Below, piece after piece: positions 1 to 13,952 of a stretch of DNA of 16,770 nucleotides. Under the pieces are notes generated by a model, which searched no databases, was not told the origin of the DNA, and worked only from the letters and a program-made list of their open reading frames with translations. Source of the stretch: Clostridia bacterium. Its GTDB lineage: Bacteria > Bacillota > Clostridia > Monoglobales > Firm-18. The position numbers and the translations under genes are program-made. The stretch spans positions 1 to 16,770 of the forward strand of contig JAFQVC010000009.1 in the NCBI GenBank assembly GCA_017408205.1, in the 5' to 3' direction. Within the stretch, counting starts at the first letter, position 1. Each line of letters opens with the position of its first letter.

Positions 1-291
1 TATCAATGATATTACATATATAACAGCAACAGCACAATGAAACAATGGCAAAAGTGATTTCTTTGTTATTTTCTTAAGTTTACAGGTTTTGATTAACGCG
101 TATATATAACTTATTATATACGTACCGCCGATTACCGCACCGACAAACATAGAAACAGTTTCAACCAATGTTTTGTCCGTCATTATGCAAATCAAAAACC
201 TTATTGATGTCCAAAACCAGGCAAATATCGCCACAGGTATAGGCAATGCAAAAAATATAAAAAAGGATATAGTCAATAATTTCTTCTTCAT
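1..291 (-). CDS. Partial membrane protein, unknown (C-terminus beyond the window)
   Basis: This reading frame starts at an ATG (289-291) and stays open to the window edge, giving 97 residues with no stop. An excellent Shine-Dalgarno, AAAAGGAG, lies about 9 bases upstream of the ATG. The start MKKKLLTISFFIFF is followed by a hydrophobic segment (about residues 4-26), a second one around 49-66 rich in Ile, Gly and Tyr, a basic stretch (KTCKLKKITKK), and the beginning of a third at the edge. This looks like a small multi-pass inner-membrane protein. It lies 48 bp downstream of the preceding gene on the same strand and is probably the fifth gene of the membrane-protein operon transcribed from about 2561. 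I recognise no family. That it is a gene is fairly secure from the RBS and length; its function is unknown. Confidence 0.7.
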   Translation of the reverse strand, partial: MKKKLLTISFFIFFALPIPVAIFAWFWTSIRFLICIMTDKTLVETVSMFVGAVIGGTYIISYIYALIKTCKLKKITKKSLLPLFHCAVAVIYVISLI

Positions 292-339
292 TATTTCAAC
301 TCCTTTTGGAGAGATTTTAACTTAGGTGGTACTGCGAAA

Positions 340-894
340 TCAATGCTGGGCAAATGTGGTATCCTTAGCAATACCGTTCTCAAATACAATTTCGTAATAA
401 TACGAGTCAATTCCGTCTCCCGCATAATATTCATATCTTATAATTGTTTCATTGCCGTAATTGTACATTGGTTCTCCTAACAATTCAAGCACTTCTTTTT
501 CTGTCTTTCCTACAATTCCGTGTTCCTCTTCCAGATCGTCTATCATATATATTCTGAGACTTTCATATTTGCCCCATTTTTCCTGACTGAAATCGGATAT
601 ATAGCCTTTGGCTATGGCTAATATCGAGCCAACAAGCACTACAGAAATTATTGTAAAAATAAGAAATGATAACGGCAAGGAAAAGTATTTTGTTATCCGT
701 TTTCTAAATAAAATCGGTAAAACAAAAACCAGTATGTATATAATAGCAGTAATATTAACCAATATGCCGTTACCCAGTGATGTAAACATAGGGCTGAATA
801 CGAGCAGAAAAAATGATACAAATAAAATCCCTGCCCAACCTATAATAAGTGCAGCAGTACAAAGTGTATTTAATATAATATTTTGTTTACTCAA
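340..894 (-). CDS. Three-TM protein with BamE/SmpA-like C-terminal domain
   Basis: This encodes 184 residues. The start is TTG at 892-894, supported by TTAAAGGAG with a 7-base spacer; there is no better ATG nearby. Hydrophobic segments lie at about 10-35, 46-63 and 74-96, followed by a soluble, probably extracytoplasmic, tail. The tail contains GKTEKEVLELLGEP, then a Tyr-rich strand (IIRYEYY) and YYEIVFENGIAKD. This order (G-x-t-x-x-e-V-x-x-l-l-G-x-P, then aromatic strand, then FenGkv) resembles the small domain of the BamE/SmpA-OmlA superfamily, also found in Firmicute membrane-anchored proteins. In a monoderm it cannot serve the outer-membrane Bam complex, so the resemblance indicates fold only. 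It is the fourth gene of the operon, 27 bp after its neighbour. Function is unknown; the family resemblance is inferred by eye. Confidence 0.75.
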   Translation of the reverse strand: MSKQNIILNTLCTAALIIGWAGILFVSFFLLVFSPMFTSLGNGILVNITAIIYILVFVLPILFRKRITKYFSLPLSFLIFTIISVVLVGSILAIAKGYISDFSQEKWGKYESLRIYMIDDLEEEHGIVGKTEKEVLELLGEPMYNYGNETIIRYEYYAGDGIDSYYYEIVFENGIAKDTTFAQH

Positions 895-921
895 ATTTTT
901 TCTCCTTTAATAACTGTAAAT

Positions 922-1329
922 TTATTTAAAATCTTCGATTTTATATCCATCAGAAAGCCGGTATATCCTAAACCAATGGCACCATTCATTCTGTGAGCCA
1001 ATTCCAAAGTCATAATGTTCATTTACGCTATCATCTTTTTTATAATAACCTACTAATCCAAGACGATCTATTTCTTTAAACCCGTGTTCATTAAACAACT
1101 CCTCGTAAATATAATCATGCCTACCAATAAACACACTTGTTTCACTATCGGGTATCTCATACACAGTAAAACCGTCACTAAAACCGAAATATACGGCCAT
1201 TGTTTGCGGTATCGCATAGGCACTGTATCCATATTCTTTTAAGTACTTATAAATCCCGCCAATGGTTATTGTTAAATATAATATTATCAGTATCAAAATA
1301 TAAGTGATTATCTTTTTAAATACTTTCAT
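922..1329 (-). CDS. Small membrane-anchored protein, unrecognised
   Basis: This encodes 135 residues from ATG at 1327-1329. The upstream RBS is weak (GGGGTG about 5-6 bases away), so expression may partly depend on coupling to the gene ending 14 bp upstream. The N-terminus is MKVFKK followed by a strongly hydrophobic segment to about residue 27, an uncleaved signal anchor or signal peptide without a lipobox Cys. The rest (about 30-135) is soluble, with many aromatic and acidic residues (FGFSDGFTVYEIPDSE, WCHWFRIYRLSDGYKIEDF) and probably faces outward. I recognise no domain. The size and architecture match the preceding gene (1344-1790), which suggests related extracytoplasmic roles, but I saw no convincing sequence similarity between them. 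Confidence 0.72.
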   Translation of the reverse strand: MKVFKKIITYILILIILYLTITIGGIYKYLKEYGYSAYAIPQTMAVYFGFSDGFTVYEIPDSETSVFIGRHDYIYEELFNEHGFKEIDRLGLVGYYKKDDSVNEHYDFGIGSQNEWCHWFRIYRLSDGYKIEDFK

Positions 1330-1343
1330 ATATACACCCCGAA

Positions 1344-1790
1344 CTAAATTTCAGCACCAAGAATAGAAATCAATTGGTTTTCAAAATCAGGATTATTTAT
1401 CTTGTGGTAATGACTTCCGTATTCTCCTAAAATCTGTATATACTCACCACCGATAAGACTGATTTGCAAATGTTTTTGACCACCATCGTTCCAGTTTGCA
1501 AATATTGTGTACCTTTTATCGGGCAACACTCCAACAATGGTTGATGATATACGGCGGGTATATGAATTTTCCTCTATAAGTTTTTTAAACTGTTCTATCT
1601 GTGTTATGTCTAAATTGTATTCGGCTCTTTCGTCACCGTCTTCATTCATAACAATAACTGTAACAGATTTTGCCTCCAAAAGTTTATCTACAAACTTAAT
1701 TTCCTGACCGCTGATATTGAAAAAAGAATATACAGAAGCAATAACAAACAACACTATAATTACCGTCAAAATTATTTTTAAATGCTTCAT
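1344..1790 (-). CDS. Small membrane-anchored protein, unrecognised
   Basis: This encodes 148 residues from ATG at 1788-1790, with a strong RBS (AGGAGG, about 7 bases upstream). The N-terminal hydrophobic segment runs from about 5 to 24 (IILTVIIVLFVIASVYSFF), giving a signal anchor. The soluble part contains VTVIVMNEDGDE, then a helix (QIEQFKKLIEENSY), then YTIFANWNDGG and HLQISLIGGEYIQIL, ending in NPDFENQLISIL. This alternation of strands and one or two helices is common among uncharacterised extracytoplasmic domains of Firmicutes, some named as DUFs. I cannot name the family with confidence. It is the second gene of the operon, 18 bp from the first gene and 14 bp from the third. No catalytic motif is visible. 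Confidence 0.74.
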   Translation of the reverse strand: MKHLKIILTVIIVLFVIASVYSFFNISGQEIKFVDKLLEAKSVTVIVMNEDGDERAEYNLDITQIEQFKKLIEENSYTRRISSTIVGVLPDKRYTIFANWNDGGQKHLQISLIGGEYIQILGEYGSHYHKINNPDFENQLISILGAEI

Positions 1791-1808
1791 AGTTTATCCT
1801 CCTGATGT

Positions 1809-2531
1809 TTATTCCATATCATAACTAACGTTATTTATCAAAAGAGTATTAGCATCTTCCCATTTTAAATTTGGTGATTTCCCCCAAGGTCCCGTCCACA
1901 ACTGTTCTTCTCTGATTACCGAGCCAAGCAATAATGGTATCTGATTTTTATTATTACGAACTCTTACACAAGTATCGCCGCCCAATGCTCCTTCGTCATG
2001 GGAAATGGATACAGCAACATAAGTGCCATCAGGTGATTTAACTGTTTGCAAAATCTTGCTTTCTCCAATATTTGAAACAAACATGGTAACAAGCAATATA
2101 AATCCAAATACCAGGATAAGAGCAAATGAAATAACACCAACAACAATCTTAAGCCATAAAACTTTGTTATATACAAAAAAGATTGTTAACGAAAATGCAA
2201 GTGTTACTATAAGCATCATTTCATAATATAAAAGACTGTATGTTCTATAATCATTGATAAAGTCAAAGGAAAACAATAATGTTACAACATACACCAGTAC
2301 TATTATCGGTAAGAAAGAAGCGAATATTTTCGAAGTTTTACCAGCGCAACTTCTATACTTAATTGAAAAAAACATAATAAAAACTGCTATTATTAAATTT
2401 ATCACATAAAAAACAGTGTAATTATTTGGTCTGTATGTATAATCAAACTTAACCAAAATTAAATTTAATGCAGACAAAATAATCATGATAATTCCTGTTA
2501 TGGAATTAATATTGGTTTTAATTTTGTTCAC
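1809..2531 (-). CDS. Five-TM membrane protein with soluble C-terminal domain
   Basis: This encodes 240 residues when started at the GTG at 2529-2531, which has AAAGGAG 8 bases upstream. An in-frame ATG at 2583-2585 would lie upstream of the likely -10 element (2568-2573) and has no good RBS, so I reject it. Predicted membrane segments are at about 10-27, 40-57, 69-89, 105-121 and 128-152. They are followed by an 88-residue soluble tail beginning VKSPDGTYVAVSI and containing GGDTCVRVRNN, GPWGKSPNLKWEDANTLLINN. The tail pattern (SPDG-Y, then a charged strand, then a W-x-D-x-x-x-L-x-I-N strand) is reminiscent of DUF5412-like domains, a weak assignment by eye. It is the first gene of a five-gene minus-strand membrane operon. 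Its function is not known. Confidence 0.78.
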   Translation of the reverse strand: MNKIKTNINSITGIIMIILSALNLILVKFDYTYRPNNYTVFYVINLIIAVFIMFFSIKYRSCAGKTSKIFASFLPIIVLVYVVTLLFSFDFINDYRTYSLLYYEMMLIVTLAFSLTIFFVYNKVLWLKIVVGVISFALILVFGFILLVTMFVSNIGESKILQTVKSPDGTYVAVSISHDEGALGGDTCVRVRNNKNQIPLLLGSVIREEQLWTGPWGKSPNLKWEDANTLLINNVSYDME

Positions 2532-2565
2532 ACCAATATCTCCTTTCGGCATAATTTGAATAAAT

Positions 2566-2610
2566 TTATTATAACATACTTTCATTTATTTTTAAAGTAT
2601 GTTATAATAA
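2566..2610. promoter_or_regulatory. 17-bp inverted repeat with mirror-image divergent promoters
   Basis: The arms 2566-2582 and 2594-2610 are perfect reverse complements of 17 bp around an 11-base spacer. Each arm carries TGTTATAAT reading outward, that is TATAAT with the extended -10 TGn. The minus-strand hexamer is at 2568-2573 and the plus-strand one at 2603-2608. Clear -35 hexamers are not visible (TTTAAA for minus at 2591-2596; only a weak TTTCAT for plus at 2580-2585), which fits extended -10 promoters. The left promoter would serve the membrane operon and the right one the QueG-like gene. The dyad could equally be an operator that controls both directions. It has no T-tract, so it is unlikely to be a terminator. 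Confidence 0.6.
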
Positions 2611-2625
2611 TTTCAGGTGATTTTT

Positions 2626-3285
2626 TTGAATAATAATGATTATATTAAAAACTTATGTGAAAAACTTGGTGTTTACGAAGTTGGGTTTTCAAAAATCGAC
2701 CACGATTTACCGTACGCAATATCCATTGTAGTACCTTTGTCAAAATACATAATAAATCAGATAAGCGATAAGCCAACTCACCAGTATTTTCACCATTACA
2801 GAACTGTAAACACATTTATCGACAACACTCTGTTAAAAATCGGTATGGAAATTGCAAACCAGAATTACAATTACCTCCCTGTTGCATCATCTCAGTCAAT
2901 TGACGGCTATAAAGGGTACCTTTCCCACAAGACCGCCGCACGGCTTGCAGGACTCGGTTTTATAGGCAAAAATGCAATGTTCATTTCCGAAAAGTACGGA
3001 ATTGCAGTACGCTTGGGAACAATACTTACCGATATGCCCTTTGACACGGGTACTCCCATACAAAAAGACTGCGGTGACTGTAACCTTTGCAAAAACGCCT
3101 GTCCTGCCATGGCTATATCAGGAGTTAATTACAAAGAAGGCATTTCCCGTGAAGAGATGTTTGACCCGAACGCCTGCAGCGAATATATGAAAAAGGCATT
3201 TCAGCATATTGGCAGAGGTGCTGTCTGCGGTATTTGTATTAAAAATTGCAGATATTTTAACTTAAAAAATCCGAGCGATAGTTAA
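2626..3285 (+). CDS. Double [4Fe-4S] QueG-like (COG1600-type) protein
   Basis: This encodes 219 residues if started at TTG 2626-2628, with AGGTGA at 2615-2620 as Shine-Dalgarno. The alternative GTG at 2617 overlaps that SD and would be nearly leaderless. The C-terminal third has two ferredoxin-like clusters: CGDCNLCKNACP (about residues 149-160) and a later C-x(n)-CGICIKNC, together eight Cys for two [4Fe-4S] clusters. The segment SHKTAARLAGLGFIGKNAMFI is the hallmark G-x-x-G-K-x-x family region of epoxyqueuosine reductase-like proteins. True QueG is about 380 residues with a corrinoid-binding N-terminal domain and often HEAT repeats. This protein is far shorter, so it should not be called QueG; the role is probably reductase-like but the substrate is unknown. 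Its 3' end overlaps the convergent protease gene by 29 bp. Confidence 0.82.
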   Translation: MNNNDYIKNLCEKLGVYEVGFSKIDHDLPYAISIVVPLSKYIINQISDKPTHQYFHHYRTVNTFIDNTLLKIGMEIANQNYNYLPVASSQSIDGYKGYLSHKTAARLAGLGFIGKNAMFISEKYGIAVRLGTILTDMPFDTGTPIQKDCGDCNLCKNACPAMAISGVNYKEGISREEMFDPNACSEYMKKAFQHIGRGAVCGICIKNCRYFNLKNPSDS

Positions 3286-3748
3286 ACTCGCCGAAATTAT
3301 ATCCCCGTTTATTCATAGACGAAAGTTTAATGCAAATTAAATTTTCGTCTGTATTTAAATTACGGGCAATTTCTGCAGTTGAACAGTCTGACAGTTCCAG
3401 TATGTCGCTGTCTGAAATAAGCAGTTCCGCTGCAAACAGATTTGCCTCATATTCCTGCTTTCCGTCTGTACCAAACAAAGTATATTCTCTCCAGAAACCG
3501 TTTTTTGCAAAATTTCTGTGCAAAACGTCGTGTCCCAGTTCGTGAGCACAAACTATTCTTGCGGTTTTTTCGTCAAGTTTGTCACTTATTACAATATACC
3601 TGTTTCTTTTAATGTATTTATACATTCCCTTTAGTTCGCCAATGTCTGCGAACACCACATTAACGCCTGCGGAATTGCATATTTCAAAAGGGTTTCTGCT
3701 GTCGCTGTAGCCGGATAGTTTAACCGCTTTTTCAACTATGTAATTCAT
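3257..3748 (-). CDS. ImmA/IrrE-family metallo-endopeptidase
   Basis: This encodes 163 residues from ATG at 3746-3748, with AAGGAG about 11 bases upstream. The zinc motif HELGH is at residues 69-73 (H69, E70, H73), preceded by ARIVCA, and the downstream YEANLFAAELL at 100-110 supplies the likely third ligand Glu101. This order and spacing are typical of ImmA/IrrE peptidases, which cleave XRE-family repressors in mobile elements (ImmA on ImmR) and in Deinococcus (IrrE/PprI on DdrO). The ATG overlaps the repressor's TGA as ATGA (3745-3748), so the two are translationally coupled and probably form repressor and cognate protease. The 3' end overlaps the convergent QueG-like gene by 29 bp. The cleavage target is inferred from context, not seen. 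The catalytic residues are intact. Confidence 0.9.
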   Translation of the reverse strand: MNYIVEKAVKLSGYSDSRNPFEICNSAGVNVVFADIGELKGMYKYIKRNRYIVISDKLDEKTARIVCAHELGHDVLHRNFAKNGFWREYTLFGTDGKQEYEANLFAAELLISDSDILELSDCSTAEIARNLNTDENLICIKLSSMNKRGYNFGEFNYRSDFLS

Positions 3749-4125
3749 TTTTTATTTTTCTCCTTAGCGTCCCAGTAAAGTTCAGTAACCACTTTAAATA
3801 CTTTGTCCATATCTTCTTCGTTAAGATGGCCCCCGGCATACATTCCGTTTATCTCTTCTATTAATTCTTTTGCATCTTTAAGACCTGCACCGCCGTATTT
3901 CATTTGTGCATCTACCGCAAAACTCTCCTTCTGGTCAAACAGTTCCTCATAAGTTACCCCAAACAAACTGCACATTTTATTAATTACTTCTGTTGATTTG
4001 GGGTATCTGCTTCCTGTTTCGTAAAACTGAACAGTTCTTTCGGACACTCCTATTTTTTGTGCCAGTGCTTTTTGAGAAATATTGTTTTTGGTACGCAAAT
4101 CTTTTAGTTTGTGGCAAAATTTCAT
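3745..4125 (-). CDS. XRE-family transcriptional repressor, partner of ImmA-type protease
   Basis: This encodes 126 residues from the ATG at 4123-4125, with GGAGG (4131-4135) 5 bases upstream. An upstream in-frame ATG at 4171-4173 is rejected because it lacks an RBS and would run through an operator. The N-terminus is a Cro/C1-type helix-turn-helix (about 3-60): ISQKALAQKIGVSERTVQFYE, where SERTVQFYETG is the recognition region. The C-terminal helical part includes DAKELIEEINGMYAGGHLNEEDMDKV and ends in a basic KEKNKK tail. That tail type is common in clostridial XRE regulators beside ImmA-like proteases. It is expected to bind the three 16-bp repeats in its own upstream region and repress both itself and dinB. 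That role is inferred. The LexA-like look of the sites leaves other regulators possible. Confidence 0.88.
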   Translation of the reverse strand: MKFCHKLKDLRTKNNISQKALAQKIGVSERTVQFYETGSRYPKSTEVINKMCSLFGVTYEELFDQKESFAVDAQMKYGGAGLKDAKELIEEINGMYAGGHLNEEDMDKVFKVVTELYWDAKEKNKK

Positions 4126-4142
4126 ACTTACCTCCAAATAAC

Positions 4143-4158
4143 ACGAACTATAATTCGT
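4143..4158 (+). promoter_or_regulatory. Operator 1 of XRE/dinB control region
   Basis: The sequence ACGAACTATAATTCGT has inverted arms ACGAA/TTCGT. It matches the local consensus ACGAACTWWAATTCGT exactly. It lies in the 5' leader of the repressor transcript, just upstream of its RBS, and starts exactly 30 bp before operator 2. Confidence 0.7.
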
Positions 4159-4166
4159 TTTTTCTA

Positions 4167-4195
4167 TTGACAACGAACTTTAATTCATATATACT
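4167..4195 (+). promoter_or_regulatory. dinB promoter (TTGACA-17-TATACT)
   Basis: The -35 is a perfect TTGACA at 4167-4172 and the -10 is TATACT at 4190-4195, with a 17-base spacer. The start site would be near 4202, giving a leader of about 59 bases before the dinB ATG. Operator 2 fills the spacer almost exactly (4173-4188), a placement where a bound repressor would block RNA polymerase. A second plus-strand TATAAT at 4230-4235 has only a poor -35 and is a weaker alternative. Confidence 0.75.
4173..4188 (+). promoter_or_regulatory. Operator 2 of XRE/dinB control region
   Basis: The sequence ACGAACTTTAATTCAT differs from the consensus ACGAACTWWAATTCGT at one position. It fills the spacer of the dinB promoter and is 30 bp from both operator 1 and operator 3. 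Confidence 0.7.
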
Positions 4196-4202
4196 TAATA
4201 TG

Positions 4203-4218
4203 ACGAATTTAAGTTCGT
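4203..4218 (-). promoter_or_regulatory. Operator 3 of XRE/dinB control region
   Basis: On the minus strand this reads ACGAACTTAAATTCGT, an exact consensus match; on the plus strand it is ACGAATTTAAGTTCGT. It covers the predicted start sites of both promoters (about 4202 for dinB, about 4216 for the repressor), so occupancy should silence both. Confidence 0.72.
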
Positions 4219-4222
4219 GTCT

Positions 4223-4251
4223 ATTATATTATAATTACGAATGAAAGTCAA
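4223..4251 (-). promoter_or_regulatory. Repressor-protease operon promoter (TTGACT-17-TATAAT)
   Basis: On the minus strand the -35 TTGACT (4246-4251) and the -10 TATAAT (4223-4228) are 17 bases apart. The start site would be near 4216. This promoter faces the dinB promoter, so the two predicted transcripts overlap at their 5' ends by roughly 15 bases, and each polymerase must cross the other's promoter. Confidence 0.7.
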
Positions 4252-4252
4252 G
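4237..4252 (-). promoter_or_regulatory. Degenerate fourth operator
   Basis: On the minus strand CTTGACTTTCATTCGT matches the 16-bp consensus at 11 positions, with one half (ATTCGT) intact. It overlaps the -35 of the repressor promoter. It starts 34 bp, not 30 bp, after operator 3, and is probably a weak site or a half-site. Confidence 0.4.
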
Positions 4253-4260
4253 GAGAAAAG

Positions 4261-5499
4261 ATGAGAACAATACTGCATTGCGATATGAATAATTTCTACG
4301 CCTCTGTGGAGTGTTATAAGAATCCCGCAATAAGAAATCTGCCTGTTGCAGTAGGCGGAAATCAAGAGGCACGTCACGGAATTATCCTTGCAAAAAATTA
4401 CATTGCAAAAAAATATAATATACAGACAGGTGAGCCCATAGTAAGTGCAAAAAGGAAATGTCCCGACCTTGTAGTTGTACCTCCCGATTTCAAAACATAT
4501 ATGGAATATTCAAATGAGGCACGGGAAATATACTACAGTTACACAGACCAGGTAGAAAGTTTTGGTTTAGACGAAAACTGGCTTGACGTAACGGGAAGCG
4601 CACAAACCTTTGGCACCGGCGAAAAAATCGCAGGAGAATTAAGGGAAAAGATAAAAAAACGTTTAGGTGTTACCATTTCCGTAGGCGTAAGTTACAACAA
4701 GATATTTGCAAAACTTGGCTCCGACATTAAAAAGCCCGATGCCACTACAATTATTTCCAAAAGCAATTACCGTGAAGTTGCCTGGCCTCTTCCTGCTTCC
4801 GACCTCCTTTATGTAGGACCAAAAACAGACATTAAATTAAAAAAGTACGGAATTAAAACCATAGGGGGAATTGCAAATACAGATGTAAAAATTCTAAAAG
4901 TTCTCCTTGGTAAAAACGGCGAAATGCTGTGGGGATTTGCAAACGGCTTTGACTGTTCTCCCGTTAAAACAATGGACCATTTCCAGATACCCAAAAGCAT
5001 AGGCAACTCAACAACCACATACCGCGACTTAGTAAGCGACGATGACGTAAAAATAGGTCTTATGGTTATGTGCGAAAGTGTTGCCTCAAGAATGAGGGAT
5101 ATAAACTTAAGATGCAACACTGTACAACTTCATATCCGCGACAAAAACCTTGTCACAACGGAAAGGCAGTGTAAACTGTCATACCCCTGCTGTGATGCAA
5201 AAAGTCTATTTGAAGCAACATTTGCCCTTTATAAAAACCACTTTAAAAACTCCCCTGCAATACGAAGTATAGGGGTACGTGCAACAGACTTTATTCCTGA
5301 CAAAAACATACAACTGAGTTTTAATACCGACGCTTATAAAATATCAAAGCAGGAAAATCTTGAACGGCAGATTGACATTATAAGAAAAAAATACGGCACC
5401 TCTGCCATAAGGCAGGGCACCGTTTTATTTGACAGTAAATTAGCACAGTTAGACCCGAAAAACGACAACGTTATTTATCCCGAAAGTTACTTCAATTAA
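4261..5499 (+). CDS. dinB: Y-family DNA polymerase (DNA polymerase IV, DinB type)
   Basis: This encodes 412 residues from ATG at 4261, with AAGGAG 5 bases upstream. It is an error-prone translesion polymerase. Catalytic carboxylates are visible: Asp8 in HCDMNNFYASVE (Tyr13 is the likely steric gate against ribonucleotides), and Asp104/Glu105 in FGLDENWLDVT, equivalent to the usual SIDEAYLD. The palm motif SVGVSYNKIFAKLGSDIKKP follows, then a thumb and little-finger region with FIPDKNIQLSFN around 344-355. QLSFN is a plausible beta-clamp contact resembling the QLSLF of Pol IV. Length and motifs are complete. It is divergent from the repressor-protease pair and shares its operators, which implies damage- or stress-inducible expression. 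Its stop overlaps that of the convergent response regulator by 3 bp. The UvrX subgroup is possible, but Pol IV-like is the safer name. Confidence 0.92.
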   Translation: MRTILHCDMNNFYASVECYKNPAIRNLPVAVGGNQEARHGIILAKNYIAKKYNIQTGEPIVSAKRKCPDLVVVPPDFKTYMEYSNEAREIYYSYTDQVESFGLDENWLDVTGSAQTFGTGEKIAGELREKIKKRLGVTISVGVSYNKIFAKLGSDIKKPDATTIISKSNYREVAWPLPASDLLYVGPKTDIKLKKYGIKTIGGIANTDVKILKVLLGKNGEMLWGFANGFDCSPVKTMDHFQIPKSIGNSTTTYRDLVSDDDVKIGLMVMCESVASRMRDINLRCNTVQLHIRDKNLVTTERQCKLSYPCCDAKSLFEATFALYKNHFKNSPAIRSIGVRATDFIPDKNIQLSFNTDAYKISKQENLERQIDIIRKKYGTSAIRQGTVLFDSKLAQLDPKNDNVIYPESYFN

Positions 5500-6266
5500 T
5501 TACAGTAATTTCTTACAACGTGTGCAATGGTAGAAATAAATTCGGAATTAGTGGGCCTACCTTTAGTTTTATCAATAAAGGGCTTAAAGTAATCCATATA
5601 AACTGTTGAATTACTTCTGTTCCAGGAAGTCTGAATGGCATTTCTTATAGCACGTTCAACATTCCAGGCAGAAGTGTTTGTGGCACGGGCGATATCGGGA
5701 TACAACAGTTTAGTTACGCTGCAAGCAACGGAAATGTCTTCTGTTGCCATTAATATTGCCCGTCTTAAGTAATCATAACCTTTAAGATGTGCAGGCACAC
5801 CAAGTTCACGAAGAATTTTAAACACCAGTTTTTCAGGGTCTGAATACACTTCGGCATTTTCCTCTATGGTATCGTCAAGTTGTGGATTGTTTTTTCTCAT
5901 TATCATTCTGCATCTGTCAAACAGGATGTCAAATCCGTAGTCCTTGTGCAAAAACAAATCAGCGCCGCTGTCCTGTAAAATCTGAAACAGTGACGGAAAC
6001 GGATGTGAACAAATAACGATAACCTTCGGTTTTTTCACAAGCTTCATTTCGTGTATTTTCTCCATTACGTTTGTTGCATCTTCTTCTAAAAGAAAGTTGT
6101 CCAAAAATACAACGTCAGGCAAAGTATCTTTAATAAGGGTAATTGCGTCTTTTGCATTATTGGCGCAACCAACCAGATGCAAATCCTCTGTTTTATTAGC
6201 CATACACTGAAAAGCGACGCAATAATCCGCATCGTCATCTATTAATGCAATATCAATAATCGACAT
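5496..6266 (-). CDS. Response regulator with Spo0A-type DNA-binding domain
   Basis: This encodes 256 residues from ATG at 6264-6266, with AAGGAG about 10 bases upstream. The receiver (about 1-125) has the acidic pocket DDD at 10-12, phosphoacceptor Asp56 in VVFLDNF, Ser87 and Lys108, so phosphorylation looks possible. The C-terminal domain (about 145-256) matches Spo0A strongly: LGVPAHLKGYDYLRRAI, LLYPDIARATNT, the recognition-helix region NVERAIRNAIQTSWNRSN, and RPTNSEFI. It should therefore bind 0A-box-like DNA. The receiver is atypical: the MP-H-x-DG region after the phospho-Asp in true Spo0A is replaced by LLEEDATN. The neighbours are repair genes, not spoIVB. I read it as a Spo0A paralogue or a diverged Spo0A, not proven to be the master sporulation regulator. 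Confidence 0.85.
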   Translation of the reverse strand: MSIIDIALIDDDADYCVAFQCMANKTEDLHLVGCANNAKDAITLIKDTLPDVVFLDNFLLEEDATNVMEKIHEMKLVKKPKVIVICSHPFPSLFQILQDSGADLFLHKDYGFDILFDRCRMIMRKNNPQLDDTIEENAEVYSDPEKLVFKILRELGVPAHLKGYDYLRRAILMATEDISVACSVTKLLYPDIARATNTSAWNVERAIRNAIQTSWNRSNSTVYMDYFKPFIDKTKGRPTNSEFISTIAHVVRNYCN

Positions 6267-6288
6267 ATTTTACCAACTCCTTGGGTTC

Positions 6289-6317
6289 AGTATAGCACAA
6301 TAATAATTACATTTCAA
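6289..6317 (-). promoter_or_regulatory. Promoter of the Spo0A-like regulator
   Basis: On the minus strand TTGAAA (6312-6317) is followed by a 17-base spacer and TATACT (6289-6294), with an extended -10 TGC just before it. The start site would be near 6282, about 16 bases upstream of the ATG, leaving a very short leader that carries the SD. It lies in the 78-bp gap after addA, where I see no terminator hairpin, so read-through from addA is also possible. Confidence 0.65.
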
Positions 6318-6344
6318 TAGTTTTTGGTAAATTTTTCCATTTTT

Positions 6345-9300
6345 TTACAATTTATACAAAATAGTTTCCTTTACTTTAACACCAAGTAACTTTTCAAGGC
6401 ACTTCTTGTAAATTTCTATCTGCCTGTCATACTGCTCGTTTATATTACCTGTTTTGTAATCGACAATAACAATGTCGCCATCTTCGTAAAAGAAGCAGTC
6501 AACAGTACCCTGAACAAGTATTTCCTCGTCGTTGTCAAAACCAATATCTTTTAAATTGATGCTTACGACGAAACTGTATTCGCGAAGTACCTTGTCTGAT
6601 TTTTTAATTCTGTCACCTATTGGTGAATTATAAAAATCGTAAATTCTGTCAACATCAACGACTTTTTGTTGCAAATCGGTGATAAGCCCGTCCGCAACCA
6701 TATTTTGAATCTGAGCATTTATAGCGTCAACTGAAGTGTTATTGTAATCAATATGGCTCATAACGAAGTGGATAAGAGAGCCGACCTGTGCTTTAGTGAA
6801 TTTTTTGTCTTTATCAACTGTAAATTGTTTTACAAAAGGAACACCATCGTTACCGCTTATCTCGGTAACAGACATTTTGGACTTAATCTGCGACAGTACC
6901 GCATGCTTGTATCTGTAAGACAAAAGTTCGTCAATCTCATCGCAGACGGTATTGTCTTTGTACTTATCATCAAAAGACGAAGAGTAACAGTTTAGCGGCT
7001 TCAACGCCTCCTCGTGTGAAATAATTTTAAACAGTTTATGATTTTCAACGCCCTGCATAATCCAGTCAAGGAAACAGCCGACACTCATTATTTCCCGTTC
7101 AATCACAGGCATCAGTGACAGTTTTTCAAGTTTATCCTGTGCCTTGGACGAACTTCCTATAATGCAGAGGTAATTTTTGGCTCTTGTTAATGCAACGTAT
7201 AAAACACGCATTTCTTCCGCCATATCTTTGTCAAGGCGCTTTTTAAGAATGGCGTTTTGCGGAAGGGAATTATAACGGAACGTTTTTTCAGGCACAACAT
7301 AGTTAAGACCTATGCCAAGTTCACCGTCAGTTACCGCAGGAACGTCATTCGATTGTTTTTTAAACCCGAACCCCTTACCGCTTCTTACCAGAAATACAAC
7401 AGGAAATTCAAGACCTTTACTTTTGTGTATGGTCATAATTCTGACGGCGTTTTTAAAGCCCGAAGTGTCTCTGGCACTTTTGTACTGACCATTACCGTCA
7501 GCCATAGATTTAATGTAAGTAATGTACTGAAATACTGATTTTCGCTCATTCTTTTCAAACTGTGCAGCCCTTGTAATCAAAAGGCGTAAATTTGCCATTC
7601 TCTGCTGACCTGCAGGAAGCAAACCGACAAACGAATAGTAACCTGTGTCGGTAATTATTTTATTTATAAGAAACTCAAGATTTTCAGTTTTTGAAAGTTT
7701 TATAAAAGTGTTTACTGTTTTTACAAACTCAACCGCTTTTGGATTTTTACTTAAAAATACAGCATTATAAAACTTACAGTTTTTATGTTCAAGTTTAATT
7801 TCTGCAAGTTCGTTGTCTGTAAAACCGAACATAGGACTTCTCATAACGGAAAGCATAGGTATATCCTGATAAGGATTGTCTATAAGTTGCAGAAAAGACA
7901 AAACTGTGGAAATCTCAATTGCAGACAGATAACTTTCCGTTTCTTCACATACAGAAGAAATACCAAACATTGACAGTTCCCTCATAATGGAAGTTGCGGT
8001 ATCGCCTTTTACGGAGCGGGCAAGAATCGCTATGTCGCTGTACTTTACAGGACGAAGTTCATTGGTATCACTGTCAACTATAAGCGGTTTATCCACTTCA
8101 ACCATAGTAACGATTTTTTTTGCAATAAAGTAATCTTCCGTTTCATAATCTGTTTTCCTGTCAGGGTTGTCAATAACGCAGATTTCAACTGGCAAATCAG
8201 TAACTTGCTTTTTATTACTGTAAACTAATTTCTGGTCGTCGGTGTAATTAACGCCACCCGTTTTTTCCGTCATTATTTTCTCAAAAATACCGTTGATAAA
8301 AGAAAGGATATTTTCGGAACTTCTGAAGTTGTTGCTTAATGAAATTTTCATACCATCGGGAGAAATCTCGTCTTTATAACTCAAATATCTATTGACAAAA
8401 CTGTCGGGAAGGGCGTTTAAAAAACCGTAAATGCTTTGCTTTACGTCGCCAACCATAAATAAATTATTTCCCTTTGAAATATTTTCAAATATTGCTACGT
8501 TTACTTCGTTGGTATCCTGAAACTCATCAATTAAAATTTCGTGATATTTGTTTTTAAGTTCCCCCGCAATTTCATCATTTGAAAGTAGCTTGTCAAGGGT
8601 TAAATGCAACAAATCATCAAAGTCATAACAGTTGTTTGAAACTTTGTAATCGCTGTAAAATTCACCGTACCAAAGCACAAGTTTTCTTATTAAATCAACA
8701 GTTCCGAACTGGTTGTTAAGTTCTTTTGTTGCGTCTTCCGATTTAAAGGGAACATAATTTGCAAACCCACCAACGATATTTTTAATTTTTTTACGGCACT
8801 CTTTTACAATGTCTGCAAATCTGTCATCACAGTCTTTTGTTTTTTTGGGCATAGTTTCAAACGTAATATTAAGCCCGAAGTCATAAAGTTCGTTCCAGTT
8901 AAGTTTTTTGTCAAATACAAACTTCTGTTTTTCCTGTGTAAGGAAATCATAATAACTTGTTATACCGCCCAAATCAGAAAGGTCGATAGCCGTATCGTAA
9001 TATTTTTGTATATCTGAAAGTTCGGAATTTATCATATCAACTATATATTCCGCCACAACGGTATCAGAAAATTTTCCGCTGTAAGTGTCAGCACAAAAGT
9101 CAAGCCACTCCTTTGGGTTTGCCTTGCACATACTGTACTTATGAATGTCAATTATCATATTCTTAAGTTTGGTATCGTCAAATCTGCCGCCGTGACAGTA
9201 CAAAAGATTGTTCATACCGTCTTCATCCTGACTAAAGCCCTTTTCAATACTTAATCGTGCACAGTCTGCCTGTGCTTCACCCATAACAATTTCATCAATT

Positions 9301-9677
9301 ATGGAAAAATCAGGGCTTATACCAATTTTATAAAAGTTGTCTTTTAACAAATTCTGACAAAATGAATGAATGGTTGAAATCTGTGTCTGGGAAAGACGGT
9401 CAAGTTGGTCTCTGTAAAAACCGTTATCGGGATTTTCGTTAATAAGGCGCGATAACGCTTTGTAAATTCTTGTTTTCATTTCTGCCGCAGCAGCGGTAGT
9501 GAATGTAACAATGAGTAACTTGTCCGCAGGTACGGGCTTATCGGGATTGGTAATAATTTTAATTACCCTTTCAACCAGAACCGCAGTTTTGCCAGACCCC
9601 GCTGCAGCCGAAACTAAAATATTTGAACCGGAGGAGATCATTGCCTTTAATTGATTATCTGTCCATTTCATTGACAT
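6345..9677 (-). CDS. addA: ATP-dependent helicase/nuclease subunit A (AddA)
   Basis: This encodes 1110 residues. AddA is the UvrD-type 3'-5' helicase and nuclease subunit of AddAB, which resects double-strand breaks for RecA. Superfamily 1 motifs appear in order: Walker A AAAGSGKT at 24-31; TFTTAAAAEMK; STIHSFC; DEFQDTN near 385; VGDVKQSIYGF; NNFRSS; TIHKSKGLEFPVVF; and YVALTRAKN near 826. The C-terminal RecB-family nuclease has a His in GSLIHFVMSH, Asp in GTVDCFF and DYKTGN near 1072. All expected catalytic residues are seen. It is slightly shorter than B. subtilis AddA (about 1230). The start ATG at 9675-9677 lies inside the end of addB (23-bp overlap), with AAGGAGG upstream; a second in-frame ATG two codons on is an alternative start. 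The overlap implies coupled translation. Confidence 0.96.
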   Translation of the reverse strand: MSMKWTDNQLKAMISSGSNILVSAAAGSGKTAVLVERVIKIITNPDKPVPADKLLIVTFTTAAAAEMKTRIYKALSRLINENPDNGFYRDQLDRLSQTQISTIHSFCQNLLKDNFYKIGISPDFSIIDEIVMGEAQADCARLSIEKGFSQDEDGMNNLLYCHGGRFDDTKLKNMIIDIHKYSMCKANPKEWLDFCADTYSGKFSDTVVAEYIVDMINSELSDIQKYYDTAIDLSDLGGITSYYDFLTQEKQKFVFDKKLNWNELYDFGLNITFETMPKKTKDCDDRFADIVKECRKKIKNIVGGFANYVPFKSEDATKELNNQFGTVDLIRKLVLWYGEFYSDYKVSNNCYDFDDLLHLTLDKLLSNDEIAGELKNKYHEILIDEFQDTNEVNVAIFENISKGNNLFMVGDVKQSIYGFLNALPDSFVNRYLSYKDEISPDGMKISLSNNFRSSENILSFINGIFEKIMTEKTGGVNYTDDQKLVYSNKKQVTDLPVEICVIDNPDRKTDYETEDYFIAKKIVTMVEVDKPLIVDSDTNELRPVKYSDIAILARSVKGDTATSIMRELSMFGISSVCEETESYLSAIEISTVLSFLQLIDNPYQDIPMLSVMRSPMFGFTDNELAEIKLEHKNCKFYNAVFLSKNPKAVEFVKTVNTFIKLSKTENLEFLINKIITDTGYYSFVGLLPAGQQRMANLRLLITRAAQFEKNERKSVFQYITYIKSMADGNGQYKSARDTSGFKNAVRIMTIHKSKGLEFPVVFLVRSGKGFGFKKQSNDVPAVTDGELGIGLNYVVPEKTFRYNSLPQNAILKKRLDKDMAEEMRVLYVALTRAKNYLCIIGSSSKAQDKLEKLSLMPVIEREIMSVGCFLDWIMQGVENHKLFKIISHEEALKPLNCYSSSFDDKYKDNTVCDEIDELLSYRYKHAVLSQIKSKMSVTEISGNDGVPFVKQFTVDKDKKFTKAQVGSLIHFVMSHIDYNNTSVDAINAQIQNMVADGLITDLQQKVVDVDRIYDFYNSPIGDRIKKSDKVLREYSFVVSINLKDIGFDNDEEILVQGTVDCFFYEDGDIVIVDYKTGNINEQYDRQIEIYKKCLEKLLGVKVKETILYKL

Positions 9678-12600
9678 AATTTATATACTCCTCCTTACTT
9701 ATTTTATTTATAATTCTGTATTTGTTATCAAAGCAACTGTCAAAAGTGCAGACAGACATATAGTCGCAAAGATTACACCAGGGATTTCCTCCTACGTTGG
9801 CAGGGGATATCTCTATTTTACCAGACATAATTTCCGCAACAGTTGATTTGATTTTTTTGTACGCATTTTTGCACATAATTTCAATATCTTTTCTGGAAAC
9901 ATCGGGCTTAACAGCAAAAGTGTCACCCAGTGCACCGCAGGATACCTGCTCGTCTGCAACAATGCCCTTCATTTTAAGAGCATCTCTTATCTTTTCTTTA
10001 ATTTGCTGTTCGTTGTCTGTTCTGTTTCCCGAAATAATCGGATAATCTATCTTATAGTACAAAATTGCAGCAGGTACAGTTACCACTTTGGTTTTTTCAG
10101 TTAAAAATCTGCATATTGCATCAATATAGACGGGAAGTTGTATCTGAATACCGTATAATGCCTTTGCAAAATCTACGTCTTTATTACCTGTTTTGTAGTC
10201 AACAACGTTAATGTAATTGACATCATCCGTCATATACATATCAACTCTGTCAATTTTACCAGTAAAATGTGCAACTGTGCCATCGTCGAGAGTAATATCA
10301 ATTTCGGGGAATTCGCTGTCTTTTCCTCCAAAGGCAACCTCACTTCCGTACATTTCAAATTTACTGTTTTTGTAAAATTCCGTAATGTTCCAAAGTACTC
10401 CCTTTAAAATTCCCGAAATTTTTTTAACCATCGTACTGCCCTGCAAACTGTCATAAAAAGTTTCACCCATAATTTCTTTCACGGTATCATGGGTAAGTTT
10501 TGCTGCCATTTCATCACAAACGGATTTTGTGACAGATTCAAAGTTTTGTACCTTGCAGTAATTTGTGTAATTTTCAATAACGCTGTGCATAATTGTACCA
10601 ATATCCAGATTTAATGCGGCATTTTCTTTTCTTGCTCTCGCTTTTAATCCGTACCTTAAGAAATAAGAATAGGGACAGTTGTTAAACAATTCAATCTTTG
10701 AAATACTGAAATACGGAGTATCGCCGTAAAGCCCGTTTACTATATCGTTCCTTAATTGTTCAGGATTGTTGGTGAACTTGCGTGCATTTAGTATTACGTT
10801 ATATTTTTCAGGCATATTTTCTTTAAACCATAATTCAATATCCTTGTTTTCTTTCGCAATAATTCTGTTAAACGTTGGAACTACCGCATCCGCAACCGCA
10901 TCATTTTTACAAACAGTAATTTCAGGAAAAATGTCTGTCAGATTATTAAACACCCTTGATTTATTAAGGGAATTTCCGTCAAAATCGTTCAAACTGTAAG
11001 AAAGGTATAATTTTTGCGATGGCGATGTCAATACGGAATACAAAAGAAAACTTTCCGCTCTTTGTTTTATTACTGTTGTGTCGGGAGCATCAAACCCCGC
11101 CTTTTCAAGTTCTTCCTTATCCGTTTCCGAGATTAATCCGTCGTTAATGTAACCCTTGGGCATAACACCCTCGTTAATTCCAATAACAAAAACAATCTTT
11201 TTTTCCTCTTTAAACAAATCCGCTTCGCTTACGGTTACGCAGTCAAGTGACGGGGGGACCTGACCTGCATCGCAACCCGAAAGTCCGGATTTTAATATTT
11301 CAAAATATTTTTCCACCGTTGTGGGCTGTTCCCCGAAAACACTGCACATATTGTTTATAACATCAACCAAAATGTTGCAAACGGTAATGTACTGCTTCCC
11401 TTTTTGCAAATCATCAGTATTATTGTATTTAACATAAACGTATTTTTCAATATTAAGGTCATTTAAAATATTAATAAACGCCTCTGAAATCTTTACAAAG
11501 GTCTTTCTGCCCGATAACTGTTCTTTGAATTTATAAATAACGTCAGTTAACTTGTGATAATTCTCTTTAAGATACGAAAACTCGCCATCCGACAAATCCG
11601 CCTGATAAGTAAATTGCTTTTGCCACTTTTTCTCATTACTTCCCGTTGCGATAATATAGTTTTCCATTATCCAGCAAAGTTTTCTGTCATTATGAAAATC
11701 AGATTTAATAAAGTTTATCAGGGAATTCTGTGAAAAGTTGTTTATTATAACTTCAAAAGGTGTAAGTAAATCACTTATAAGGGGATGCTTTGTGCAGTTT
11801 ACCGCTTCACTTAAAAACACAGGAATTTCGTAATCCGAAAACACTTTTTTAATCAGAGAGTTATATGCGTCCCTGTCTCTGTGCACAACAGCAAAATCAT
11901 TGTATTTGTAGCCAAAATCACGTGCAAGACGGTAAATTTCAGATGCAACAAAAGAAATCTCATCATAATAATCGTCTGCTTTATAAAGTCCGATATTCTC
12001 TGTCTTTTCACCATACGGCCTGACAGGATAACGAAACAGATTGTTATTAAGATAAAGAAGTTCATTGTTATTGTATCTGGTTACATCGCCAAGATAAACA
12101 TTAGGCATAACCTCAACATTATTTTTGTATGCAAGTTTATACATTTTGTCTGCAACGGTAATGCCCCTGAAAAATATACTGTTATCGTTGTTAAGATTGT
12201 CTGTAACGCAGGTAACGTAAATATTTTCAGCAACACTCATAAGTGCCTCTATAACCTGCTCCTGTGCCTTTGTGAAACCGTTAAAACCGTCAATTATTAC
12301 TGTATATCCTTTAAAAATATTAAATTTAAATATCTTTTCAGAAAGTAACGGAAGACAGTCGCTTGTGTCAAAATAACCGTCTTTAAATTCCGAATTGTAT
12401 TTTTCGTACAAAAAAGCAATGTCCGTAAGTTTAAGTTTAGAAATCATATTACTGCAATCTGACGCAACAAAGCGTAAATCAGCGGGGGTAACACAACTTG
12501 CCTTTAAAGAATTAATCGCATCAAGAAGATGACCTGCAAAATTAAGTTCATCTTCATAGGCACGAAGTACAGACAACTCTTTGGCGTGCTTTATAAGAAG

Positions 12601-12870
12601 TTTTTTAATAATCATACATTTTGTGCTGTTATCAATAAAATTGCACAAAACCGGACCGTATTTTGAAAAAACAGAGAGAGCAAGACGGGAAAAACCCGTA
12701 ACAGTAACATTACCGCCCAGATTGTTTTTTGCAACTTCTTTTTCAGCGCTTAAGCAAATATGTTCGGGCGTTATAAATAAAACATTATTGTCGGCTGATT
12801 TTTTAATAATGTCAAAACAATATTTTGTTTTTCCGCTTCCCGGCAGTCCGTAAATTATACCAATAGCCAT
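9655..12870 (-). CDS. addB: ATP-dependent helicase/nuclease subunit B (AddB)
   Basis: This encodes 1071 residues from ATG at 12868-12870, with a GGGGGAAGGA SD. AddB is the partner of AddA; in known AddAB its helicase fold is inactive as a motor and scans for Chi, and it carries a second nuclease. Visible features are Walker A GLPGSGKT at 8-15; the AddB-typical FVIGINEGVMPKG region; ISKIELFNNCPYSYFLRYG (first Fe-S cysteine near 731); the nuclease signature GKIDRVDMY followed by VVDYKTGN near 891; and the C-terminal CNLCDYMSVC near 1035, which completes the four-Cys [4Fe-4S] site. Length is close to the roughly 1160 of B. subtilis AddB. It is the first gene of the addBA pair. It starts only about 15 bases after the spoVG terminator, and no obvious promoter is visible between them. 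Confidence 0.95.
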   Translation of the reverse strand: MAIGIIYGLPGSGKTKYCFDIIKKSADNNVLFITPEHICLSAEKEVAKNNLGGNVTVTGFSRLALSVFSKYGPVLCNFIDNSTKCMIIKKLLIKHAKELSVLRAYEDELNFAGHLLDAINSLKASCVTPADLRFVASDCSNMISKLKLTDIAFLYEKYNSEFKDGYFDTSDCLPLLSEKIFKFNIFKGYTVIIDGFNGFTKAQEQVIEALMSVAENIYVTCVTDNLNNDNSIFFRGITVADKMYKLAYKNNVEVMPNVYLGDVTRYNNNELLYLNNNLFRYPVRPYGEKTENIGLYKADDYYDEISFVASEIYRLARDFGYKYNDFAVVHRDRDAYNSLIKKVFSDYEIPVFLSEAVNCTKHPLISDLLTPFEVIINNFSQNSLINFIKSDFHNDRKLCWIMENYIIATGSNEKKWQKQFTYQADLSDGEFSYLKENYHKLTDVIYKFKEQLSGRKTFVKISEAFINILNDLNIEKYVYVKYNNTDDLQKGKQYITVCNILVDVINNMCSVFGEQPTTVEKYFEILKSGLSGCDAGQVPPSLDCVTVSEADLFKEEKKIVFVIGINEGVMPKGYINDGLISETDKEELEKAGFDAPDTTVIKQRAESFLLYSVLTSPSQKLYLSYSLNDFDGNSLNKSRVFNNLTDIFPEITVCKNDAVADAVVPTFNRIIAKENKDIELWFKENMPEKYNVILNARKFTNNPEQLRNDIVNGLYGDTPYFSISKIELFNNCPYSYFLRYGLKARARKENAALNLDIGTIMHSVIENYTNYCKVQNFESVTKSVCDEMAAKLTHDTVKEIMGETFYDSLQGSTMVKKISGILKGVLWNITEFYKNSKFEMYGSEVAFGGKDSEFPEIDITLDDGTVAHFTGKIDRVDMYMTDDVNYINVVDYKTGNKDVDFAKALYGIQIQLPVYIDAICRFLTEKTKVVTVPAAILYYKIDYPIISGNRTDNEQQIKEKIRDALKMKGIVADEQVSCGALGDTFAVKPDVSRKDIEIMCKNAYKKIKSTVAEIMSGKIEISPANVGGNPWCNLCDYMSVCTFDSCFDNKYRIINKISKEEYINYVNEMDR

Positions 12871-12885
12871 TAATCCTTCCCCCTG

Positions 12886-12921
12886 AAAAACAAAAAGGAA
12901 TTACCGACGGCAATTCCTTTT
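12886..12921 (-). terminator. Intrinsic terminator after spoVG
   Basis: On the minus strand the arm AAAAGGAATT (12912-12921) pairs perfectly with AATTCCTTTT (12893-12902). The 9-base middle GCCGTCGGT can add three more pairs. A T-rich run follows (TTTTTGTTTTT including the end of the stem, down to 12886). It begins 28 bases after the spoVG stop. Reading-strand orientation and T-tract support spoVG termination, perhaps partial, since addB follows immediately. Confidence 0.8.
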
Positions 12922-12949
12922 ATAATTATTATCCGAGCCAATGCGCGTC

Positions 12950-13237
12950 TTATTCGCTGTCAGCAGTAACTTCGGGCTCAGCATCTTTTACTTCAAGATA
13001 CTTGTCAATAATTGATTGTTGAATAGACTCACGCATTTCTGCGTTGATTGGATGAGCGATGTCTTTAAACTCACCATCAGGAGTCTTTCTGCTCGGCATA
13101 GCAACAAACAATTTGTCCTGTCCTTCAATTACCTTAATGTCATGAACCACGAAGCAATCATCAAATGTAACAGATACTACTGCTTTCATTCGACCTTCCG
13201 CATTTATTTTACGAACTCTGATATCAGTAATATTCAT
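12950..13237 (-). CDS. spoVG: Septation / DNA-binding regulator SpoVG
   Basis: This encodes 95 residues from ATG at 13235-13237, with AAAGGTGG about 10 bases upstream. An in-frame ATG seven codons earlier contains the SD and is rejected. The start [19 protein letters not shown] and the core [31 protein letters not shown] are nearly textbook SpoVG. The tail is acidic ([10 protein letters not shown]). SpoVG is a small, conserved nucleic-acid-binding protein. It affects septum formation and spore cortex in Bacillus and global gene expression in non-sporulating Firmicutes and Borrelia. It is apparently monocistronic here, with its own promoter and terminator. Its presence does not by itself prove sporulation. 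Confidence 0.97.
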
Positions 13238-13276
13238 AGCAAACTTTCCACCTTTCACGAAAATTCATTTATACAT

Positions 13277-13291
13277 ATAGTTTACAACTAT
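13277..13291. promoter_or_regulatory. Short palindrome over the spoVG -10
   Basis: The plus-strand ATAGTTTACAACTAT has inverted 6-bp arms around 3 bases. It overlaps the predicted -10 element (13279-13284) of spoVG and could be an operator. It is short and AT-rich, so chance is a real alternative. Confidence 0.3.
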
Positions 13292-13307
13292 TTTCACAAA
13301 AAATCAA
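13279..13307 (-). promoter_or_regulatory. Probable spoVG promoter
   Basis: On the minus strand TTGATT (13302-13307), a 17-base spacer and TAAACT (13279-13284) form a fair sigma-A-type promoter, with a start site near 13272. I do not see a clear sigma-H-type promoter, the type known for B. subtilis spoVG. The rest of the AT-rich gap up to pgsA (13308-13387) shows no hairpin I would call a terminator. Confidence 0.45.
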
Positions 13308-13933: not shown

Positions 13934-13952
13934 AATAAAACCTCAATTTCTT

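Follow-up and report, generated by a model that had tools for sequence, protein, structure and literature searches.

Plasmid mutagenesis cassettes of the UmuDC/MucAB type are mobile, hold their Y-family polymerases under stress control, and are driven by RecA-dependent self-cleavage. Here, a cassette with a different kind of switch is proposed for a 16,770-nucleotide stretch of DNA from a Clostridia bacterium (GenBank assembly GCA_017408205.1, contig JAFQVC010000009.1, positions 1 to 16,770; contig C198 of the genome called G000 below). This whole stretch is referred to as the window; its genome sequence comes to 1.16 Mb and is 71% complete. Within the window, a small repressor of the XRE family and an M78 zinc protease are encoded divergently from dinB, a gene for a Y-family polymerase. 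The reading put forward, with a probability of roughly 0.7, is that these three genes make up a cassette complete in itself, by which a translesion polymerase is induced independently of LexA. Comparative evidence drawn from sequences supports it well.

Switches that pair an XRE repressor with an M78 protease have, of course, been described before (the papers that follow are cited from excerpts). In the element ICEBs1 of Bacillus subtilis, the repressor ImmR, a protein of 127 amino acids, is cut between F95 and M96, in a linker between two predicted C-terminal helices (PMC8960796). The proteases ICEBs1 ImmA, CapP and PprI are all reported to respond to DNA damage (PMC8960796, PMC10904395). PprI and CapP are reported to be activated by single-stranded DNA, a response that PprI does not show when the GAF-like domain is missing (PMC10904395). 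More generally, pairs of COG2856 and Xre genes were expected to have further regulated components (Makarova et al., 2009, PMC2701414), in a paper in whose text neither UmuC nor DinB occurs. No XRE/M78 switch paired with a Y-family polymerase was met in titles and the beginnings of abstracts among the literature matches listed.

The features of the locus on which the argument rests are these:

3257 to 3748, minus strand: M78 (ImmA/IrrE-type) zinc protease, 163 amino acids, a single domain with an intact HELGH motif (Pfam PF06114 Peptidase_M78, 5.1e-17)
3745 to 3748, minus strand: ATGA in which the stop codon of the repressor overlaps the start codon of the protease, read from the sequence
3745 to 4125, minus strand: XRE/Cro-C1 repressor, 126 amino acids, ATG at 4125 and stop at 3745 (Pfam HTH_3, 5.5e-13)
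4143 to 4158: putative operator 1, ACGAACTATAATTCGT, a 16-bp palindrome upstream of the dinB -35 box
4167 to 4195, plus strand: predicted dinB promoter of the sigma-70 type, TTGACA at 4167-4172, 17-bp spacer, TATACT at 4190-4195, 11/12 consensus
4173 to 4188: putative operator 2, ACGAACTTTAATTCAT, a 16-bp palindrome in the spacer between the -35 and -10 boxes for dinB
4203 to 4218: putative operator 3, ACGAATTTAAGTTCGT, a 16-bp palindrome between both -10 boxes, covering both expected start points
4223 to 4251, minus strand: predicted repressor-protease promoter, TTGACT at 4251-4246, 17-bp spacer, TATAAT at 4228-4223, 11/12 consensus
4236 to 4241: TACGAA half-site within the spacer of the repressor promoter
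4261 to 5499, plus strand: Y-family polymerase gene dinB (DinB/YqjW-type), 412 amino acids (Pfam IMS, 1.4e-44; IMS_C, 8.4e-24)

All three genes are intact, full-length open reading frames, and their coordinates agree with those in a preliminary description of this DNA made from its letters. For the repressor, the ATG at 4125 is used; an open reading frame listed from 4173 is the longer TTG reading. The preliminary description had recognised an XRE repressor and an HELGH zinc protease coupled through an ATGA overlap, and the Pfam matches, the intact motif and the overlap itself all agree with this. The overlap suggests that translation of the two proteins is coupled.

The dinB product matches DNA polymerase IV structures in the PDB (3.6e-50). 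In NCBIfam its best score is against PRK03103, under the cut-off (345.8 against 381 bits), and it is just over the cut-off of PRK02406, DNA polymerase IV (258.5 against 256 bits). D8, D104 and E105, which are taken here to be the catalytic acids, are kept in it and are identical in 41/41 DinB-type matches. With its IMS domains and these three acids, the product has what defines a Y-family polymerase. It is the sole member of that family found in G000, and likewise in the congener G001; in a second congener, G002 (84% complete), none was found.

The neighbourhood recurs widely, as the preliminary description would require. When repressor and protease were each used to search 100 related genomes, 30 repressor loci were returned, of which 21 (the window's genome included) reach at least 60 bits. 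An M78 gene adjoins the repressor in 21/21. A polymerase lies within 1.5 kb in ten of them (nine divergent, one downstream), and none lies there in the other eleven, one of which (L012, in genome G018) has a DinB gene about 1.6 kb downstream. Among M78 loci outside the repressor family or at its edge (L050, L052-L058), a polymerase is present in 0/8. A wider search of genome contigs confirmed at least 324 repressor relatives, and the best 80 were analysed, with flanks limited by contig ends. Here, M78 stands behind the repressor in 65/80 and a Y-family polymerase stands alongside in 41/80. The polymerase is divergent in 28 (22 DinB-type and 6 UmuC-type, the types being told apart by how far each is identical to the window polymerase, with the border at 35%) and downstream in 13. 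Seven polymerases were checked in Pfam, three from the best 80 and four from the plasmids and phage considered below, and all seven match IMS. Carriers include Ruminococcus bromii 5AMG, Faecalibacterium longum, Hespellia stercorisuis and Proteocatella sphenisci.

The repressor gene and dinB diverge from a 135-bp control region common to both, and the claim that this region is rich in operators has stood at the level of sequence. It holds one palindrome in three copies at a spacing of exactly 30 bp, with a three-site score of 58.0 against 41.0 ± 1.8 in 20 dinucleotide shuffles (z = 9.4). With no more than one mismatch, the 16-mer occurs in the G000 sequence only as operators 1-3. G001 has the same three sites and one further at one mismatch, which falls inside the coding sequence of a protein judged by eye to be secreted. 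Looser matches are not in excess: at two mismatches the sites do not outnumber those of the reversed pattern genome-wide, either in G000 (5 against 10 per strand) or in G001, and a looser pattern, also at two mismatches, gives 16 matches in the whole window where 19.4 are expected. Thus, the operator signal consists of close matches and their spacing. A regulon sharing the operator was looked for genome-wide in G000 and G001 and was not found.

The two promoters at this locus point at each other. This head-on geometry was scored in relatives as a distance of 80-98 bp from -35 to -35 with both promoters at 10/12 or better, near-duplicates such as G000/G001 being kept in the counts. It is found at 31/39 loci with a divergent polymerase, against 5/2040 shuffled regions. 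It is found as well at 8/13 loci with a downstream polymerase (one more was too short) and at 29/50 without one. This means that the geometry is a trait of the repressor family and does not come with the polymerase only.

What a control region contains varies with the recognition helix of its repressor, and this argues that the repressor itself most likely reads the operators. For this comparison, 103 control regions were collected; the 75 with a strong promoter were used, and 48 were left once repressors of at least 85% identity had been dropped. Control-region 5-mers were compared with the promoter hexamers masked, and 13 residues were taken as the recognition helix. Similarity in 5-mers tracks similarity in the helix with r 0.269, and with a partial r of 0.234 when the rest of the protein is controlled (0/2000 permutations). 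The rest of the repressor, with the helix controlled, adds just 0.029 (80/2000 permutations). When blocks of 13 residues are scored along the repressor, the top scores fall over helix 3. A stricter cut of the repressors, at 55% identity, leaves n = 21 and gives partial values of 0.163 for 5-mers (5/1000) and 0.127 for 4-mers (23/1000).

Models of the two proteins suggest how such a repressor might be removed. The AlphaFold model of the repressor (predicted local distance difference test, pLDDT, 91.2) has a helix-turn-helix domain followed by two long C-terminal helices (65-95 and 103-123), which are joined by a loop, YAGGHLN, at 96-102. Within this loop, G98 and G99 are invariant and A97 is kept in at least 90% of 49 aligned sequences. 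In the model, the conserved AGG loop sits like the cut site of ImmR. Structural matches of the repressor from VIA-align mostly span residues 1-66, and Foldseek with the whole repressor gave no match at E <= 0.001, which excludes nothing; neither method found structural kin of the C-terminal half, and the failure to see a DdrO-type match there likewise excludes nothing. In the protease, none of the residues H69, E70, H73, H77 and E99 varies across 50 aligned sequences, and its model (pLDDT 91.6) is best matched by PprI with single-stranded DNA (8sln), PprI (8slm), IrrE (3dti/3dte) and CapP (7t5t).

The proposed switch would then work as follows. Repressor dimers on the three 16-bp palindromes, 30 bp apart, would shut the near-consensus dinB promoter, one site lying in its spacer and one over its start. 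Because the repressor-protease promoter faces that of dinB and has a half-site of its own, the repressor would limit its own promoter as well, and the two facing promoters would exclude each other. Repressor and protease would be made together through coupled translation, so that the switch would be armed in advance. The M78 protease would respond to stress, DNA damage being the likeliest signal, by cutting the repressor between its C-terminal helices; by analogy with ImmR, cleavage in the loop 96-102 is the step to be expected. Dimers of the cut repressor would fall apart, dinB would be expressed, and lesions would be bypassed at the cost of mutations.

What the signal might be is more subtle. 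By analogy with the known proteases, single-stranded DNA is the leading candidate. It cannot be taken for granted that the window protease would sense such DNA directly in the manner of PprI, because it has no GAF-like domain. It might also be held that the switch is as proposed and that its signal is not DNA damage but zinc or redox stress, competence, or a peptide acting on the protease. Zinc and redox signals are one route by which IrrE can be activated (PMC7907104), the absent GAF-like domain is the one that PprI needs for stimulation by single-stranded DNA (PMC10904395), and some pneumococcal ImmA-type switches are repressed, not activated, by RecA (PMC12637031). A translesion polymerase as the repeated payload, however, fits DNA damage best, and DNA damage is the signal reported for ICEBs1 ImmA, CapP and PprI alike. 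A signal other than damage is therefore regarded as unlikely.

The history of the payload speaks to the purpose of the proposed cassette. A tree of repressor and protease with 63 rows was made by a quick method, and its support is uneven (28/60 inner branches starred). On this tree the payload label changes 18 times, against a shuffled mean of 30.0 and a minimum of 4. Payloads thus appear to be clustered on the tree, yet to have changed far more often than the minimum. Sister repressors are found with DinB and UmuC types swapped (L084/L088 and L087/L130). The first of these pairs, where L084 has UmuC downstream and L088 has DinB divergent, shares a near-identical recognition helix and TCACAA sites. 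It would be difficult to account for the repeated joining of two polymerase types, on one flank of the pair or the other, if translesion synthesis were not what the cassette is for.

Related cassettes are also found on elements that move. Among 30 plasmid records with a match, five were inspected. Three of these, Monoglobus plasmid 5, Ruminococcus albus pRUMAL02 (typed as conjugative) and Campylobacter p16192, carry repressor, protease and Y-family polymerase, all pointing the same way. In the records from Streptococcus dysgalactiae and Vescimonas, the stretch inspected showed no polymerase. The one inspected of 29 phage records, NatCom_34192, holds a complete divergent triad, and a polymerase stands beside the repressor at 5/23 viral-contig loci (L196, L200-L203). 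From these comparisons of sequence, the cassette belongs to a mobile family. The preliminary description had supposed it to be domesticated or native, and this is where it must be revised: because the same cassette sits on plasmids, in a phage record and on viral contigs, and because the congener G002 shows neither pair nor polymerase, it is not simply either. In other respects that description was mostly right. Its remark that no integrase, excisionase or phage gene lies nearby holds, with recombinases and other mobile-element genes added, for the window open reading frames that were identified, several flanking ones being unsearched.

Several observations weigh against the proposed cassette, of course. 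Only two genomes, G000 and the near-identical G001, are known to have the exact window locus. The co-variation between helix and control region is modest in size. A per-locus motif score exceeds z = 3 in only 5/77 relatives, and palindrome profiling with a fixed centre mainly recovered the -10 box. The conservation of operators anticipated in the preliminary description is thus seen in control-region content that follows the recognition helix and is not seen locus by locus; since the per-locus search is weak, the family-wide case rests on co-variation and promoter geometry. Further, 39/80 relatives have no polymerase in reach and 15/80 have no M78 gene on the same strand behind the repressor, some in either group for want of contig, which means that the pair is not tied to polymerases. 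Some of the 39 lie near serine recombinases, sigma-like or phage-type regulators, or a helicase; others lie near a DNA methylase and, at Monoglobus-type loci, transporter genes (both judged by eye).

The remaining objections concern LexA. They would suit a second alternative, in which dinB belongs among the ordinary SOS genes under LexA, the palindromes serve as LexA boxes, and the adjoining XRE/M78 pair has nothing to do with either. The standard for this comparison is the Gram-positive LexA box, GAAC-N4-GTTC. The window operators, CGAAC/T-N4-A/GTTCG, resemble LexA boxes with 1-2 mismatches; none of the three is an exact box, each being off in one core base. LexA-like boxes are in excess at loci with a divergent polymerase (11/39, against 126/2060 in shuffled regions); they occur at 0/14 loci with a downstream polymerase and 2/50 without one, and the match at L017 falls outside its intergenic stretch. 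At L018 the LexA-like GGAACAAATGTTCC lies in the spacer of the dinB promoter. The same position is taken by the LexA-like CGAATATACGTTCG at L136, L148 and L149 (Lachnospiraceae), where other repeated sites lie near it, upstream of the repressor, and the face-to-face arrangement of promoters is missing. These last three loci are likely, from their sequences, to be under dual control by LexA and repressor.

Against this alternative stands the failure to find LexA. A search with TIGR00498 did not find it in any of the three congeneric genomes, G000, G001 and G002, although RecA was found in all three. These genomes are just 71, 89 and 84% complete, and this too weakens the proposal; the joint chance of three misses by incompleteness alone comes, by our own arithmetic, to about 0.29 x 0.11 x 0.16 = 0.005. 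Nor was a LexA-type box found upstream of recA in G000 or G001. Ten genomes have the divergent triad: four of them (G003, G007, G076, G084) have a LexA match over the cut-off, and six (G000, G001, G018, G021, G064, G073) have none. Since LexA is over the cut-off in 44/100 of the related genomes, missing LexA is not enriched among those with the triad.

Where both are present, lexA boxes and module operators can be compared. In G076 and G084 the lexA promoters hold GAAC-N4-GTTT boxes, which the module operators do not resemble. Upstream of lexA in G003 and G007 the search found no box, so the comparison is uninformative there. The box finder is imperfect, having found boxes upstream of lexA at 5/9 loci and in 2/4 triad genomes, with the orientation of the misses unchecked. 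Control by LexA alone would also leave it unexplained that control-region content tracks the recognition helix of the repressor. Thus, an ordinary SOS gene beside an unrelated pair is held to be quite improbable at this locus. The LexA-like boxes are nonetheless a real limit on any general claim of independence: what was first described as LexA-independent agrees with the congeneric genomes, where RecA was found and LexA was not, and does not extend with the same force to the whole family.

The third alternative, that the pair is a toxin-antitoxin or mobile-element maintenance system with dinB as a passenger of the element, is very improbable: COG2856-Xre pairs have been proposed to be toxin-antitoxin-like and mobile (PMC2701414), and 39/80 relatives have other neighbours, some of them serine recombinases or phage-type regulators, but a passenger would not be expected to alternate repeatedly between two distant polymerase types, on one flank of the pair or the other, nor to have operators within its promoter, and neither a recombinase nor a phage gene was identified among the window open reading frames.

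The flanks of the cassette in G001 are the same as in the window, where the neighbours identified are, besides dinB itself, a Spo0A-like regulator, addAB and an Fe-S protein. The Spo0A-like regulator (receiver and Spo0A_C domains, 5496-6266) is convergent with dinB, their ends overlapping by 4 nt, and has a second match, 34% identical, elsewhere in G001. This neighbour was also used to look for an empty site in G002, where neither a Spo0A-like match nor the cassette was found. The sequence TGACGAA at 4200-4206, at the edge of operator 3, matches what we take to be the Spo0A 0A box; by our own estimate its frequency is near chance level, and Spo0A was set aside as a regulator on that ground. 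On the other side, the Fe-S protein (2617-3285, 222 amino acids) is weakly QueG- or reductive-dehalogenase-like, under the cut-offs for both, and the 3' end of its gene overlaps that of the protease gene by 29 bp.

Some relatives show arrangements of their own. At seven loci of Monoglobus-type genomes (L005, L127, L133, L140, L142, L143, L147), the repressor-protease pair has no polymerase adjoining; at those from L127 to L147 it stands, judged by eye, beside phosphate or amino-acid transporter-like genes. Face-to-face promoters are absent from five of these seven, L005 and L127 passing. In Ruminococcus sp. FMBCY1 an IS30-type transposase gene (L144:4538-5887) lies between repressor and protease, and it is absent in R. 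bromii 5AMG (L145). At L073 and L076-L082 the pair is divergent from a weakly ArpU-like gene (under the cut-off), with sigma-like regulators, and a serine recombinase lies beyond in 7/8; this is probably the version of the switch that belongs to integrative and conjugative elements or prophages. A second, longer protein of about 240 amino acids recurs beside the cassette in element-like surroundings (L075, L084, L098, L192). It is annotated as ImmA/IrrE-like in R. albus and has no Pfam match in L084.

To our knowledge, the control of error-prone DNA synthesis in Clostridia without LexA is an open question. Should the proposed cassette be real, three genes and one control region would offer a testable answer for such bacteria. 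Metalloprotease-repressor switches would then extend from mobile-element exit and defence to mutation rate, and a mutagenesis cassette would be able to travel on plasmids and phages. Carriers of the cassette take in numerous gut bacteria as well as plasmids and phages, and in some of these bacteria LexA was not found. A bolder picture, for which the odds seem about even, would have these as widespread mobile cassettes for mutagenesis, where an ImmR/ImmA-type pair stands in for LexA and UmuD, different Y-family polymerases are captured repeatedly, and movement runs between chromosome, plasmid and phage. Here, they would be the sole inducible mutagenesis system of LexA-less gut Clostridia, thrown by a head-on promoter toggle.

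How, then, does the cassette stand beside the known systems? UmuDC/MucAB-type cassettes resemble it as mobile, stress-controlled carriers of a Y-family polymerase. They differ in relying on RecA-driven self-cleavage, where an XRE repressor and a separate metalloprotease would act here, and no UmuD was seen among the cassette neighbours identified. The CapH/CapP pair of operons for cyclic-oligonucleotide-based antiphage signalling systems (CBASS) is likewise made of XRE and M78 proteins, whose helix-turn-helix and protease folds match. That pair guards defence genes and not a polymerase; no defence operon appears among the neighbours identified here, no PADLOC search having been made.

DdrO and IrrE (PprI) of Deinococcus share with the cassette an XRE repressor, an M78 protease and a DNA-damage response independent of LexA; cleavage is known in Deinococcus and is supposed here by analogy. 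Their proteases are also among the best structural matches of the window protease. Unlike DdrO, which governs about twenty genes (PMC8533742, cited from an excerpt), the window repressor would have one local target: a many-gene regulon in the IrrE/DdrO style is not apparent, sites at 0-1 mismatch occurring in the incomplete G000 sequence only at this locus. The window protease differs as well, being 163 amino acids of M78 domain with no helix-turn-helix or GAF-like domain.

Closest of all is ImmR/ImmA. Both systems have a small XRE repressor (126 amino acids here, 127 there) with an ImmR-like helix-turn-helix domain, and in both an M78 protease with HExxH and a third acidic ligand adjoins it. 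Several sites spread across the regulatory regions of two promoters are likewise common to both, as far as the excerpted accounts of ICEBs1 go and, here, at the level of sequence. Both repressors end in two predicted helices, and ImmR is cut in the linker between them. The payload is what differs, being a Y-family polymerase here and not int/xis and transfer genes, none of which was seen among the window open reading frames searched. Thus, the cassette is structurally of the ImmR/ImmA kind and would work like it, minus the mobile-element role in this window, and its closest kin is ImmR/ImmA, with a new payload.

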